From Desulfurococcaceae archaeon (GTDB lineage: Archaea > Thermoproteota > Thermoprotei_A > Sulfolobales > Desulfurococcaceae): DNA of 52,643 bases. This document shows positions 18,705 through 40,529 of this stretch, in pieces (the first letter of the stretch is position 1; every line of letters starts with the position of its first letter). The position numbers and the translations under genes were made by a program. The notes under the pieces are model-generated. The model saw only the letters and a program-made list of their open reading frames with translations. It searched no databases and was not told where the DNA came from. The DNA is taken from NCBI GenBank assembly GCA_020833225.1, contig JAJHQS010000006.1, positions 1 to 52,643 of the forward strand. The letters are read 5' to 3'.

Positions 18705-18779
18705 GGGCCCGTCGCCTAGCTAGGATAGGGCGCCGGCCTGCGGAGCCGGAGGTCCCGGGTTCAAATCCCGGCGGGCCCG
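18705..18779 (+). tRNA. tRNA-Arg (anticodon GCG)
   Basis: Complete cloverleaf of 75 bases: acceptor GGGCCCG/CGGGCCC with discriminator G, anticodon stem CCGGC/GCCGG around the loop CTGCGGA (anticodon GCG, reading CGC/CGU), and T arm CCGGG-TTCAAAT-CCCGG. No intron, and CCA is not encoded. It differs from the tRNA-Arg at 40189 only in the anticodon loop. The decayed accessory island begins right after it. Confidence 0.96.
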
Positions 18780-19071
18780 CATCTCCCTTAAATACCTATT
18801 TAAATAGGATTATTTCTAATAGTTCACGCTTCTATAGGAGAAGTGTAAACTATTAGGTAATGTGCTAGGTGAAAATCATATTTATTATTGTTGAATGTGT
18901 AATTGGTTGCTTATTTTATGGTTTTTAATTTTTTATATAGTTGAATTATGTGATGTGCTTGATTGATCCCATTAGTTTATTATTTTCCTTATTATTTCTT
19001 TATCTCATTATTTACTCTCAATTACAATTTAGAGCACTTACTAATGCTATAGATTAAAGTTGATTAGAGAA
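18780..19071. other. AT-rich gap after tRNA-Arg
   Basis: About 290 bases without a gene. It contains one long inverted repeat (18817-18855, listed separately). The rest is very AT-rich and has stop codons in all frames. No box C/D pattern, tRNA or convincing small gene was found. Its position behind a tRNA and before pseudogenes fits an integration hot spot whose contents have decayed. Confidence 0.6.
18817..18855. repeat. 17-bp inverted repeat (hairpin)
   Basis: Arms 18817-18833 and 18839-18855 pair over 17 positions with one C-A mismatch and one G-T wobble, around a 5-base loop. It starts 38 bases after the tRNA-Arg end. It could be a transcription-terminating or protein-binding hairpin, or the relic of a mobile-element end; no second copy is seen in the window. 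Confidence 0.7.
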
Positions 19072-33041: not shown

Positions 33042-33290
33042 TTATATTTTCTTAGATTTTAATTTTGCTCTTTGTGATAATAGTTCTGAGTATTCTTCGA
33101 GAAGTCTTTTAGCATAACCCTTAATCTCCTGTGGTGGTATTTTTTTCAATAATTCACGTGTAAATTTAGAAAAACATCTATTACTGTGAAATTTTAATGT
33201 TAAATCTTCAATATTGATAATAATACCCTGTCCTGAAGGAAAAACCCTACCACAGACAATACATCTATGCTTTGATTTCTCTACACTCAC
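33042..33290 (-). CDS. L24e/TRASH-like zinc-finger protein
   Basis: 82 residues. The pattern CIVCGRVFPSGQGIIINI...LKFHSNRCFSKF corresponds to the TRASH/L24e zinc finger (C-x2-C ... C, with H). The rest is a charged helix. It could be a ribosome-associated paralogue of L24e or a metal sensor fragment; the true L24e is usually about 60 residues, so I leave the name open. GTG start; overlaps the end of the membrane-protein gene by 26 bases. Confidence 0.65.
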   Translation of the reverse strand: MSVEKSKHRCIVCGRVFPSGQGIIINIEDLTLKFHSNRCFSKFTRELLKKIPPQEIKGYAKRLLEEYSELLSQRAKLKSKKI

Positions 33291-33975
33291 TTAAGCCAAC
33301 CTCTCTTATTTTCGTATATAATTTTGATACCTCTAAAGTGTAAAGTCTTATTATAAAAGGTAATTTATTACCATGTATCTCAATAAATTTTCTCTCACGA
33401 TTTTCTTTTACACACATGTCTCTGCTATATTCGAGAAATCTCCCATCAACTACTAGTCCTTTTTTATATAGAGTGAAAGAGCGAGGTATTAATAGTTGTT
33501 TTTGTTGCTTCGTTTTTCTTGATACAAGAAATCGCATTCCCTGAATCACGCCGATGAGAAATAGGTACATTATTATAAACTTGAGAAAGTTTATTAAAAA
33601 TCCGCTACCCAGAGCTTGTAGAAAACTACGAATATATGGCTCAATAAACATCGTGTAAAGTGGAATTAACATAAACGCTGTAAAGGGAAGTATGAGGTAT
33701 ATAATTGTTGATTTAAACTGACTTTTTAATTCCTCGGTGAGTAGAGAATCATACATCATTGCTTGAGCACTTGCACCCTCTTTAAATAGTAAGGGTCCTG
33801 CTGATTTATCAATACTCTTAGTACTCTTTAAGCCTGTTCTCGTCATAAGAATCATGAATAATATAAAGTACAATATGAATACCAATAGTGCATATTGAGG
33901 TATGAGAGCTGCTACTAGGGCAAACAATACTATTGAAATAGCTTGAATGACTATGTTGATTTTTCTACTAAACAT
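33265..33975 (-). CDS. Membrane protein, DUF2208-like
   Basis: 236 residues with four hydrophobic segments (about 9-27, 29-47, 88-108 and 123-148) and a soluble C-terminal third (SFTLYKKGLVVDGRFLEYSRDM...). This arrangement matches the crenarchaeal DUF2208 family as I remember it; function unknown. ATG with GAGGTG ten bases upstream. Its 3' end overlaps the zinc-finger gene, so they are co-translated. Confidence 0.65.
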   Translation of the reverse strand: MFSRKINIVIQAISIVLFALVAALIPQYALLVFILYFILFMILMTRTGLKSTKSIDKSAGPLLFKEGASAQAMMYDSLLTEELKSQFKSTIIYLILPFTAFMLIPLYTMFIEPYIRSFLQALGSGFLINFLKFIIMYLFLIGVIQGMRFLVSRKTKQQKQLLIPRSFTLYKKGLVVDGRFLEYSRDMCVKENRERKFIEIHGNKLPFIIRLYTLEVSKLYTKIREVGLSECREIKA

Positions 33976-34054
33976 ATAATACTAACACCTCTTAGCATTA
34001 ATTAAAACTATTATCTAAAGGATTAATAAGCTGGGAAGAAAATACCTAAAATTG

Positions 34055-34103
34055 ATGATGAATCGCCACTTAACAGATGTGTGAAGATGGTCCGTGTTAC
34101 TGA
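34055..34103 (+). ncRNA. Box C/D sRNA, first of a tandem pair
   Basis: Textbook layout on the plus strand: C ATGATGA (34055-34061), 12-base guide ATCGCCACTTAA, D' CAGA (34074-34077), four bases, C' TGAAGA (34082-34087), 12-base guide TGGTCCGTGTTA, D CTGA (34100-34103). The second guide is complementary over 11 bases to AACACGGACCA, a conserved LSU rRNA segment (the region methylated under eukaryotic U18, as I recall). I could not name a target for the first guide. Both guides are exactly 12 bases, as the archaeal RNP requires. Confidence 0.85.
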
Positions 34104-34128
34104 GTAAAAATATAATACTCACTTAGCT

Positions 34129-34176
34129 ATGAGGAGCGATGGGAGTCTGAGAGATGAGGACTTTATCCCCAACTGA
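34129..34176 (+). ncRNA. Box C/D sRNA, second of a tandem pair
   Basis: Plus strand: C ATGAGGA (34129-34135, one change from consensus), 11-base guide GCGATGGGAGT, D' CTGA (34147-34150), GAGA, C' TGAGGA (34155-34160), 12-base guide CTTTATCCCCAA, D CTGA (34173-34176). C and C' share the same TGAGGA variant. The last guide could pair over eight bases with GGGGAUAA of the LSU peptidyl-transferase region; this target is tentative. A TATA-like AAAAATATAATAC lies between the two RNAs, so each may have its own promoter. Confidence 0.75.
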
Positions 34177-34210
34177 GCTCTTCTTAGAGCATTTTCAAGA
34201 CGCTTTTATA

Positions 34211-34387
34211 CTAAGTTACTGGTAATATTTTGGAGAGAATTATTATTATTACTGTGAATATTATGCTTAGAGCTATTAATAAGTGCGGCTTTATAGTGAT
34301 TACAGAGTCTATTTCTTCATAAAATCTAATGAGGCCTGCTGCGGAAGCTATACCCGGGGTACTCTTTTTATCTCTGCGTTTACTCAC
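34211..34387 (-). CDS. Protein translocase subunit Sec61-beta (SecG-type)
   Basis: 58-residue tail-anchored subunit of the SecY/Sec61 protein-conducting channel. The family pattern is visible: basic start SKRRDKKS, TPGIASAAGLIRFYEE, then IKPHLLIALSIIFTVIIIILSKI, one transmembrane helix at the C-terminus. GTG 34387 is chosen because AGGTG lies six bases upstream; another GTG nine bases earlier overlaps that site. Confidence 0.88.
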   Translation of the reverse strand: MSKRRDKKSTPGIASAAGLIRFYEEIDSVITIKPHLLIALSIIFTVIIIILSKILPVT

Positions 34388-34465
34388 ATTAAGCACCTAT
34401 TAAGTTTATTTGTAAGTCACATTTTTAATTCTTTTCATTAGCATGAATTTAGTGGGTTAAAAATT

Positions 34466-34708
34466 ATGGATCTGAGTAAGGCTCAGAAAATTATACGAGA
34501 AAAGTATTATGAGAGAGATTCTGTGAGAGGACTTTATGCGACATTTACATGGTTTATTGAAGAAGTAGGAGAACTAGCAGACGCTGTTATTAAGATGAAT
34601 AAAGAGGCTATAGAAGAGGAGCTTGCAGATGTCTTTGCGTGGTTACTCAGTATTGCAAATCTGCTAAATATTGATTTAGAGGATGCTTTTAGGAAAAAGT
34701 ATCTCTAA
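34466..34708 (+). CDS. MazG-like nucleotide pyrophosphohydrolase
   Basis: 80-residue single-domain MazG protein. The metal-binding helices read EEVGELADAV and EEELADVFAWL (E-x2-E and E-x2-D). Members hydrolyse NTPs or dNTPs to NMP and pyrophosphate, for house-cleaning of non-canonical nucleotides. ATG start. Convergent with GGGP synthase, six bases apart. Confidence 0.85.
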   Translation: MDLSKAQKIIREKYYERDSVRGLYATFTWFIEEVGELADAVIKMNKEAIEEELADVFAWLLSIANLLNIDLEDAFRKKYL

Positions 34709-36219: not shown

Positions 36220-36310
36220 TGGGCCCGCGGGGATTTGAACCCCGGGTCACGGGGATTTCCGCACCTATAGACCCGAACCCCGCATCCTAACCAGGCTAGA
36301 CGACGGGCCC
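36220..36310 (-). tRNA. tRNA-Pro (anticodon CGG) with 16-base intron
   Basis: Minus-strand cloverleaf: acceptor GGGCCCG/CGGGCCC with discriminator A, D arm GTCT/GGAT, anticodon stem CGGGG/CCCCG, T arm CGGGG-TTCAAAT-CCCCG. Removing 36271-36256 leaves the seven-base loop TTCGGGT with anticodon CGG and a 75-base mature tRNA. Position 37/38 is the canonical archaeal intron site. Upstream on the minus strand CCATAAAAA about 27-35 bases away can act as TATA box. Confidence 0.9.
36256..36271 (-). other. tRNA-Pro intron
   Basis: Minus-strand intron TCTATAGGTGCGGAAA between bases 37 and 38. The four bases 32-35 (TTCG) pair with CGGA near the intron's 3' end (one G-U), leaving three-base bulges on each side. 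This is the bulge-helix-bulge form cut by the splicing endonuclease whose structural subunit is encoded at 13798. Confidence 0.8.
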
Positions 36311-40188: not shown

Positions 40189-40263
40189 GGGCCCGTCGCC
40201 TAGCTAGGATAGGGCGCCGGCCTTCTAAGCCGGAGGTCCCGGGTTCAAATCCCGGCGGGCCCG
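40189..40263 (+). tRNA. tRNA-Arg (anticodon TCT)
   Basis: Complete 75-base cloverleaf, same acceptor, D, anticodon-stem and T sequences as the tRNA-Arg at 18705. The loop is CTTCTAA, anticodon TCT reading AGA/AGG, the preferred Arg codons in this AT-rich genome. No intron, no encoded CCA. A TATA-like CATAAAATTATTAA lies upstream. Confidence 0.96.
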
Positions 40264-40529
40264 CATTTTCTCCTATAATACATTCGATCCTAAAGGTTTC
40301 ACTAAGGCTCTTCATGTGAATAATAAATCAACGTGGCTATACATGGGTAAAATAGTGCTTAGAGTGTTTATTGATTACTAATCATGGCTATTATTATTAG
40401 CATAAGGGCCGGCATTAATCTATAACTATAGAAAGAAAAGCTATGAATAATTTAACCATATACTTTTAAGTTTTTACGATAATTGTGGGGAAGAACAATT
40501 TATGGTTTTTAGTAAATGTTGTAGTAGGT
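40264..40529. other. Gap after tRNA-Arg(TCT)
   Basis: About 265 bases. Frames are closed by frequent stops and I see no RNA gene or repeat. It probably carries only the terminator of the exporter operon from the right and of the tRNA from the left. Confidence 0.5.

Follow-up and report, generated by a model that had tools for sequence, protein, structure and literature searches.

A tandem pair of predicted box C/D sRNA genes next to sec61-beta

The window, by which we mean the whole stretch of DNA analysed here (52,643 nucleotides), is contig 84 of an 84-contig genome of 1.47 Mb that is 99.55% complete. A 235-bp gap between the gene of a DUF2208 membrane protein (33265-33975, minus strand) and sec61-beta (34211-34396, minus strand) is occupied by two complete box C/D sRNAs in tandem, sRNA1 and sRNA2, which are spaced by 25 nt and composed as follows:

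34022-34029, plus strand: TATA-like element ATTAATAA, probable promoter, 26-33 nt upstream of sRNA1 box C
34055-34103, plus strand: sRNA1, box C/D guide RNA (C to D), 49 nt, with orthologues in 23 parsed genomes
34055-34061, plus strand: sRNA1 box C, ATGATGA
34062-34073, plus strand: sRNA1 D' guide, ATCGCCACTTAA, 12 nt
34074-34077, plus strand: sRNA1 box D', CAGA (CAGA or CGGA, i.e. CRGA, in 23/23 orthologues)
34081-34087, plus strand: sRNA1 box C', GTGAAGA
34088-34099, plus strand: sRNA1 D guide, TGGTCCGTGTTA, 12 nt, invariant in 22/23 genomes
34100-34103, plus strand: sRNA1 box D, CTGA (CTGA in 23/23 orthologues)
34125-34127, plus strand: sRNA2 terminal stem, 5' arm AGC, compensatory change
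34129-34176, plus strand: sRNA2, box C/D guide RNA (C to D), 48 nt
34129-34135, plus strand: sRNA2 box C, ATGAGGA
34136-34146, plus strand: sRNA2 D' guide, GCGATGGGAGT, 11 nt, only in the window's genus
34147-34150, plus strand: sRNA2 box D', CTGA
34154-34160, plus strand: sRNA2 box C', ATGAGGA
34161-34172, plus strand: sRNA2 D guide, CTTTATCCCCAA, 12 nt
34173-34176, plus strand: sRNA2 box D, CTGA
34177-34179, plus strand: sRNA2 terminal stem, 3' arm GCT, compensatory change
34211-34396, minus strand: sec61-beta, convergent neighbour, outside the RNAs

The original prediction had described a tandem pair of box C/D guide RNAs with complete box sets, guides of 11-12 bases, a spacing of 25 bases and Sec61-beta as a neighbour, and in these respects it was accurate: both sets of C, D', C' and D boxes are present, the guides measure 12, 12, 11 and 12 nt, the distance from 34103 to 34129 agrees, and the product of the neighbouring gene, on the opposite strand, matches PF03911 with 40.9 bits (cut-off 27). 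An 80-aa MazG-like pyrophosphohydrolase ORF (34466-34708) lies between sec61-beta and the GGGP synthase gene.

Several boxes depart from the textbook form (D' CAGA, C' UGAAGA, C and C' UGAGGA), with deviations that are confined to D' and to position 4 of the C/C' hexamer and that retain the GA dinucleotides of the kink-turns. Across the sRNA1 orthologues, CTGA never serves as D': all 23 have CAGA or CGGA there, with UGAAGA or UGACGA as C', so that the U-U pair normally present in the internal kink-turn is replaced family-wide.

A descriptor of the arrangement (C, 9-13 nt, D', 2-9 nt, C', 9-13 nt, D), run over both strands of the 52.6-kb window, returned exactly two matches, namely the two sRNAs; in 200 first-order Markov shuffles of the window it returned 0.005 matches on average, with a maximum of one. 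As this descriptor was composed with the sequence already known, conservation provides the stronger, independent test.

Conservation of the pair and of its order

Within the genus, the tandem pair is found near the genes of GGGP synthase and sec61-beta in five genomes (G030, G031, G033, G034 and G035), and in a further one, G036, roughly 1 kb separates the two RNAs, which share contig and strand. Among these congeners the boxes and guides are almost unchanged, while the linker differs in both length and sequence. Beyond the genus, sRNA1 occurs family-wide, including in records titled Desulfurococcaceae, Desulfurococcales and Staphylothermus; sRNA2 follows it 9-66 nt downstream in eight genera (g1, g2, g3, g4, g6, g11, g12 and g14), and the tandem pair is present on three additional contigs. 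Altogether, boxes and guides are kept in more than 20 genomes at shifting loci; since the pair mostly lies at other loci outside the genus, it is the pair, rather than its genomic address, that is kept. The deep tandem linkage of the two sRNAs across a Desulfurococcaceae-type family is new.

The D guide of sRNA1, GGTCCGTGTT, is the same in all 23 parsed orthologues except for two letters in G021, and the D' guide of sRNA2 is exchanged between genera. An Acidilobaceae contig (L162) carries a GTTATCCCCGA-CTGA element behind an sRNA1-type guide. A wobble-tolerant guide search in several registers through 300 genomes of the phylum added G112 and G126, both with a genuine C/D context; G161, also returned by this search, and weak matches in G018, G024 and G025 were rejected as lacking such a context. 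The 129-aa ORF neighbouring the pair had no relative in a scan of the genome contigs. In G023 (genus g13), neither sRNA was found by similarity, and the 23S differs at the target sites described below (AGGGATAA at E. coli 2444, AACTCGGACC at 1366), which is consistent with joint loss of guide and target.

Alignment of 25 orthologous upstream regions on box C revealed an A+T peak from -33 to -26 (1.00 at -30), followed by a fall to 0.40 at -25/-24; the peak is a signal of the whole set, in which single TATA-like boxes vary. This is the position expected of a TATA box if transcription starts immediately ahead of sRNA1 box C, and it probably marks a promoter. The shortness of the linker and the conserved gene order further suggest that sRNA1 and sRNA2 are probably transcribed together from this promoter. 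Finally, the terminal stem of sRNA2 reads AGC/GCT in the window's genus and GGC/GCC in most other genera, a compensatory change; a few rows are broken (G031, G027), and G001 and G003 are arranged differently.

Predicted targets in 23S rRNA

The window genome's assembly is without 16S and the 5' half of 23S. The sRNA1 sites were therefore read from congeners, whose rRNAs were aligned to E. coli 23S (E. coli numbering is used throughout). The partial 23S of the window genome (G000:C31, L001) has intron-like insertions after positions 2297 (433 nt), 2552 (33 nt) and 2588 (254 nt), and other such insertions occur in congeners near 1083, 1913 and 1952.

The D guide of sRNA1 pairs with AACACGGGCC at 572-581, a target that is invariant in the relatives examined, and the nucleotide at N+5 is A575, the U18 site (predicted Am575). 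The U18-equivalent site (571-581) reads AAACACGGGCC in every related 23S examined, and the pairing includes one U-G in nearly all genomes, with a second, far-end one in the window species. The exact AACACGGACC is found at 1366-1375 and not at the U18-equivalent site. The LSU match originally proposed thus stands as to the region, and fails as to the exact 11-base pairing, the site having one or two G-U pairs. The D' guide of sRNA1 has a core, TCGCCAC, that is kept in nearly all orthologues and pairs with AGUGGCGA at 596-603 over 7-8 bp in relatives; this probable target, with N+5 at 597 (about Gm597), lies 24 nt beyond that of the D guide.

The D guide of sRNA2 pairs over 8 bp in the window's genus with GGGGAUAA at 2444-2451, placing N+5 at G2446 (predicted Gm2446). 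Its counterpart elsewhere in the family, GTTATCCCCG, is a perfect 10-bp complement of CGGGGAUAAC at 2443-2452, which identifies the target and supports the suggestion of a site near the peptidyl-transferase centre; in G031, a U-G together with a regained G-C maintains the pairing. The D' guide of sRNA2 pairs with GCUCCCAUCG at 2472-2481 over 9-10 bp (N+5 at position 2476), whereas the sRNA2 D' guides of other genera have no clear 23S target. In each sRNA, the targets of the two guides are thus about 24-30 nt apart. Two guides had initially been left without a target; both turn out to have probable 23S sites, close to that of their partner.

The suggested matching of the guides to the organism's own rRNA and tRNA placed both sRNA2 sites in the window genome's own 23S. 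Targets in tRNA were rejected: on 37 tRNA sequences called at 30 tRNA loci of this genome, the guides scored 8.0 points at most, and none of the matches looked conserved. The 52-kb window itself contains three tRNA-Arg genes, at 18705-18780 (GCG), 36220-36310 (TCG) and 40189-40264 (TCT), the TCG gene spanning 91 nt and probably bearing an intron. The best 16S sites for the D guides were weaker than those in 23S, except that the short sRNA2-D guide has a 16S site of equal strength. A match to 16S GUGGCGAAG is likewise available to the TCGCCAC core, with 7 bp in G035 as compared with 8 in 23S. A site in 23S domain IV, GGGGGUAAC, which the sRNA2-D guide of other genera fits in the window's genus, was set aside as a non-conserved target because it reads GAGUAAC in the genera that keep the guide.

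Shuffled guides reached the best observed rRNA score in 3 cases out of 400 for sRNA1-D (the best-scoring site being the one at 1366), 26/400 for sRNA2-D', 119/400 for sRNA2-D and 123/400 for sRNA1-D'. The short pairings of sRNA1-D' and sRNA2-D (7-8 bp) are therefore non-significant taken alone and rest on conservation and on adjacency to the partner site. In all, length or conservation supports the complementarity of sRNA1-D and of both sRNA2 guides to rRNA; that of sRNA1-D' is weak.

The role of the D' guides and a possible second sRNA1-D site

It is possible, even if we lean against it, that these are real C/D sRNAs in which at least one of the two D' guides directs no methylation, and acts instead as an RNA chaperone tethering nearby 23S segments or on other targets. 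Non-methylating pairings and chaperone roles have been proposed (PMC4644070). The sRNA1-D' pairing would suit such a role, as it spans only 7-8 bp, leaves three or four bases beside the D' box unpaired and shifts its register by one in some genera; so would the replacement of the sRNA2 D' guide between genera, with a clear target in the window's genus only. By contrast, the preservation of the sRNA1-D' core, whose target lies beside that of the D guide, and the 9-10-bp pairing of sRNA2-D' in the window's genus speak against this alternative.

The match at 1366-1375 raises the question of whether sRNA1-D serves two 23S sites, A575 through the U-G wobble and the hairpin at 1366-1375, AACACGGACC, through Watson-Crick pairs (predicted Am at about 1369). 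Such a dual role, which we regard as doubtful, would account for the retention in the guide of a U that forms a wobble pair at the U18 site. In its favour are the exact 10-11-bp match, seen in most of the family and in those congeners whose 23S is known, and the order-level relative G112, whose 1366 site differs (AATAGGTACC) and is accompanied by a fully Watson-Crick guide, GGCCCGTGTTT. The association between guide and site is, however, confounded by kinship, and two genomes separate the sites: G003 retains the sRNA1-D guide despite an altered 1366 site (AACACGGAGC), whereas G021 retains the 1366 site with a guide whose two changes preserve 10 bp with 572-581, the wobble having moved, and no longer fit 1366. 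The conserved target of sRNA1-D is therefore 572-581, with 1366 at most a second one, and a dual role supplements the explanation of the pair as methylation guides without replacing it.

Another box C/D sRNA, distinct from sRNA1 and also with a guide for the U18 site, lies directly upstream of an Alba gene (L164 and L165, at about 1501; L154, at about 2061). It occurs in relatives at the level of the order and in Sulfolobales archaeon Acd1, where the gene was judged by eye. In two of the order-level relatives its guide, GGCCCGTGTTTCTGA, is fully Watson-Crick (GGCCC). Judging from these two relatives, guides for the U18-site nucleotide are probably more widespread in the order.

Comparison with U18 and with archaeal double-guide sRNAs

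Eukaryotic U18 guides Am1313 in human LSU rRNA and Am647/649 in yeast. The guide and the D-type box that follows it in sRNA1 are the same as in U18 but for one letter, the SNORD18 (RF00093) consensus reading AUGGUCCGUGUUUCUGA and the window AUGGUCCGUGUUACUGA; most family members carry exactly GGUCCGUGUUUCUGA. With a single letter of difference, the predicted methylation falls on the equivalent adenosine without a shift of register: like SNORD18, sRNA1 has a guide to the conserved LSU AAACACGG site with N+5 at the equivalent adenosine. Other features differ. The U18 guide lies upstream of D' (C'/D' motif), whereas that of the archaeal sRNA1 lies upstream of D; sRNA1, unlike U18, has a second guide; and the archaeal target is GGGCC instead of the GGACC of U18, resulting in one G-U pair. 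The SNORD18 model scores 14.0 bits on sRNA1, against a gathering threshold of 41. As judged from this score and from the half that carries the guide, sRNA1 is not a member of SNORD18.

The near identity of letters could mean that the U18 methylation (the LSU adenosine at position 575) and its guide predate the split between archaea and eukaryotes, the family retaining from that ancestor a GGUCC guide suited to a GGACC target; in that case, sRNA1 would correspond on the archaeal side to a snoRNA family that the last eukaryotic common ancestor already possessed. We consider such an ancestry unlikely: the one-letter difference, and the GGUCCGUGUUUCUGA of most family members, stand against the low model score, the different position of the guide and the fact that, among 300 genomes of the phylum, the exact guide followed by CTGA occurs only within this family. 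A shared target and a shared register would by themselves force nearly all of the shared letters, so that convergence suffices and is the simpler reading. A 2012 survey listed no archaeal counterpart for U18. The guide and D box matching U18 in letters and register are new in this respect; an earlier prediction at this site is possible among the 719 archaeal sites of a 2015 pan-archaeal study.

The pair otherwise shares the properties of archaeal double-guide box C/D sRNAs (PMC4644070, PMC7994747): two kink-turn box sets, a length of about 50 nt, guides of 11-12 nt, proximal rRNA targets in the ribosome core and the N+5 register. It does not differ categorically from this known kind, for which proximal double targets are usual and clusters of two or three genes have been described (PMC7994747). 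Its own marks are the sRNA1 D' box (CRGA in 23/23) and the tandem order that persists across genera despite different loci. It also has an upstream TATA-like signal, as reported for about 20% of such genes (PMC7994747). At gathering thresholds, Rfam returned tRNAs and no C/D family over the whole window. Several of its archaeal C/D models match below threshold; sR5 (RF01304), an archaeal C/D sRNA, scores 37.9 bits on sRNA1 (gathering 40, i.e. 2.1 short), in an alignment that rests mostly on boxes and spacing, the guide letters differing from those of sRNA1.

Proposed function and significance

Taken together, the locus very probably contains two archaeal box C/D sRNA genes, likely to be co-transcribed, whose products would act as double guides directing 2'-O-methylation of 23S rRNA. 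A tandem pair of box C/D guide RNAs remains the best reading of the locus: its anatomy, its rarity in shuffled sequences and its conservation agree. The anatomy, the deep conservation, the complementarity in a conserved register and the compensatory terminal stem provide direct support. A chance occurrence of box-like motifs in an A+T-rich spacer, which short, partly non-canonical boxes without an above-threshold Rfam match might suggest, is highly improbable given the 0.005 matches expected per window against two seen, and is already refuted by the persistence of boxes and guides at changing loci.

Archaeal C/D RNPs assemble from L7Ae, Nop5 and fibrillarin (PMC7994747), and the genome encodes fibrillarin (341.3 bits). 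In each folded RNA, the kink-turns would recruit L7Ae first, followed by Nop5 and fibrillarin; the two guides of the RNA would hold neighbouring stretches of pre-23S rRNA, the nucleotide paired to the fifth guide base from the D or D' box being 2'-O-methylated. sRNA1 would in this way serve domain II (A575, which U18 marks in eukaryotes, and about G597) and sRNA2 the peptidyl-transferase/H89 region (G2446 and position 2476). Of these steps, we infer RNP assembly and methylation, as well as co-transcription and a contribution to rRNA folding.

Archaeal C/D guides have a reputation for rapid evolution, and their genes for unrestrained movement. In this case, the order of the two genes and the two D guides, with their registers, hold family-wide while the locus shifts and the D' guide of sRNA2 is replaced, making the pair a useful natural experiment for learning which guides selection maintains. 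Should the predicted methylation be confirmed, an archaeal guide to the U18 nucleotide would add one more case to the few guided rRNA methylations common to archaea and eukaryotes.
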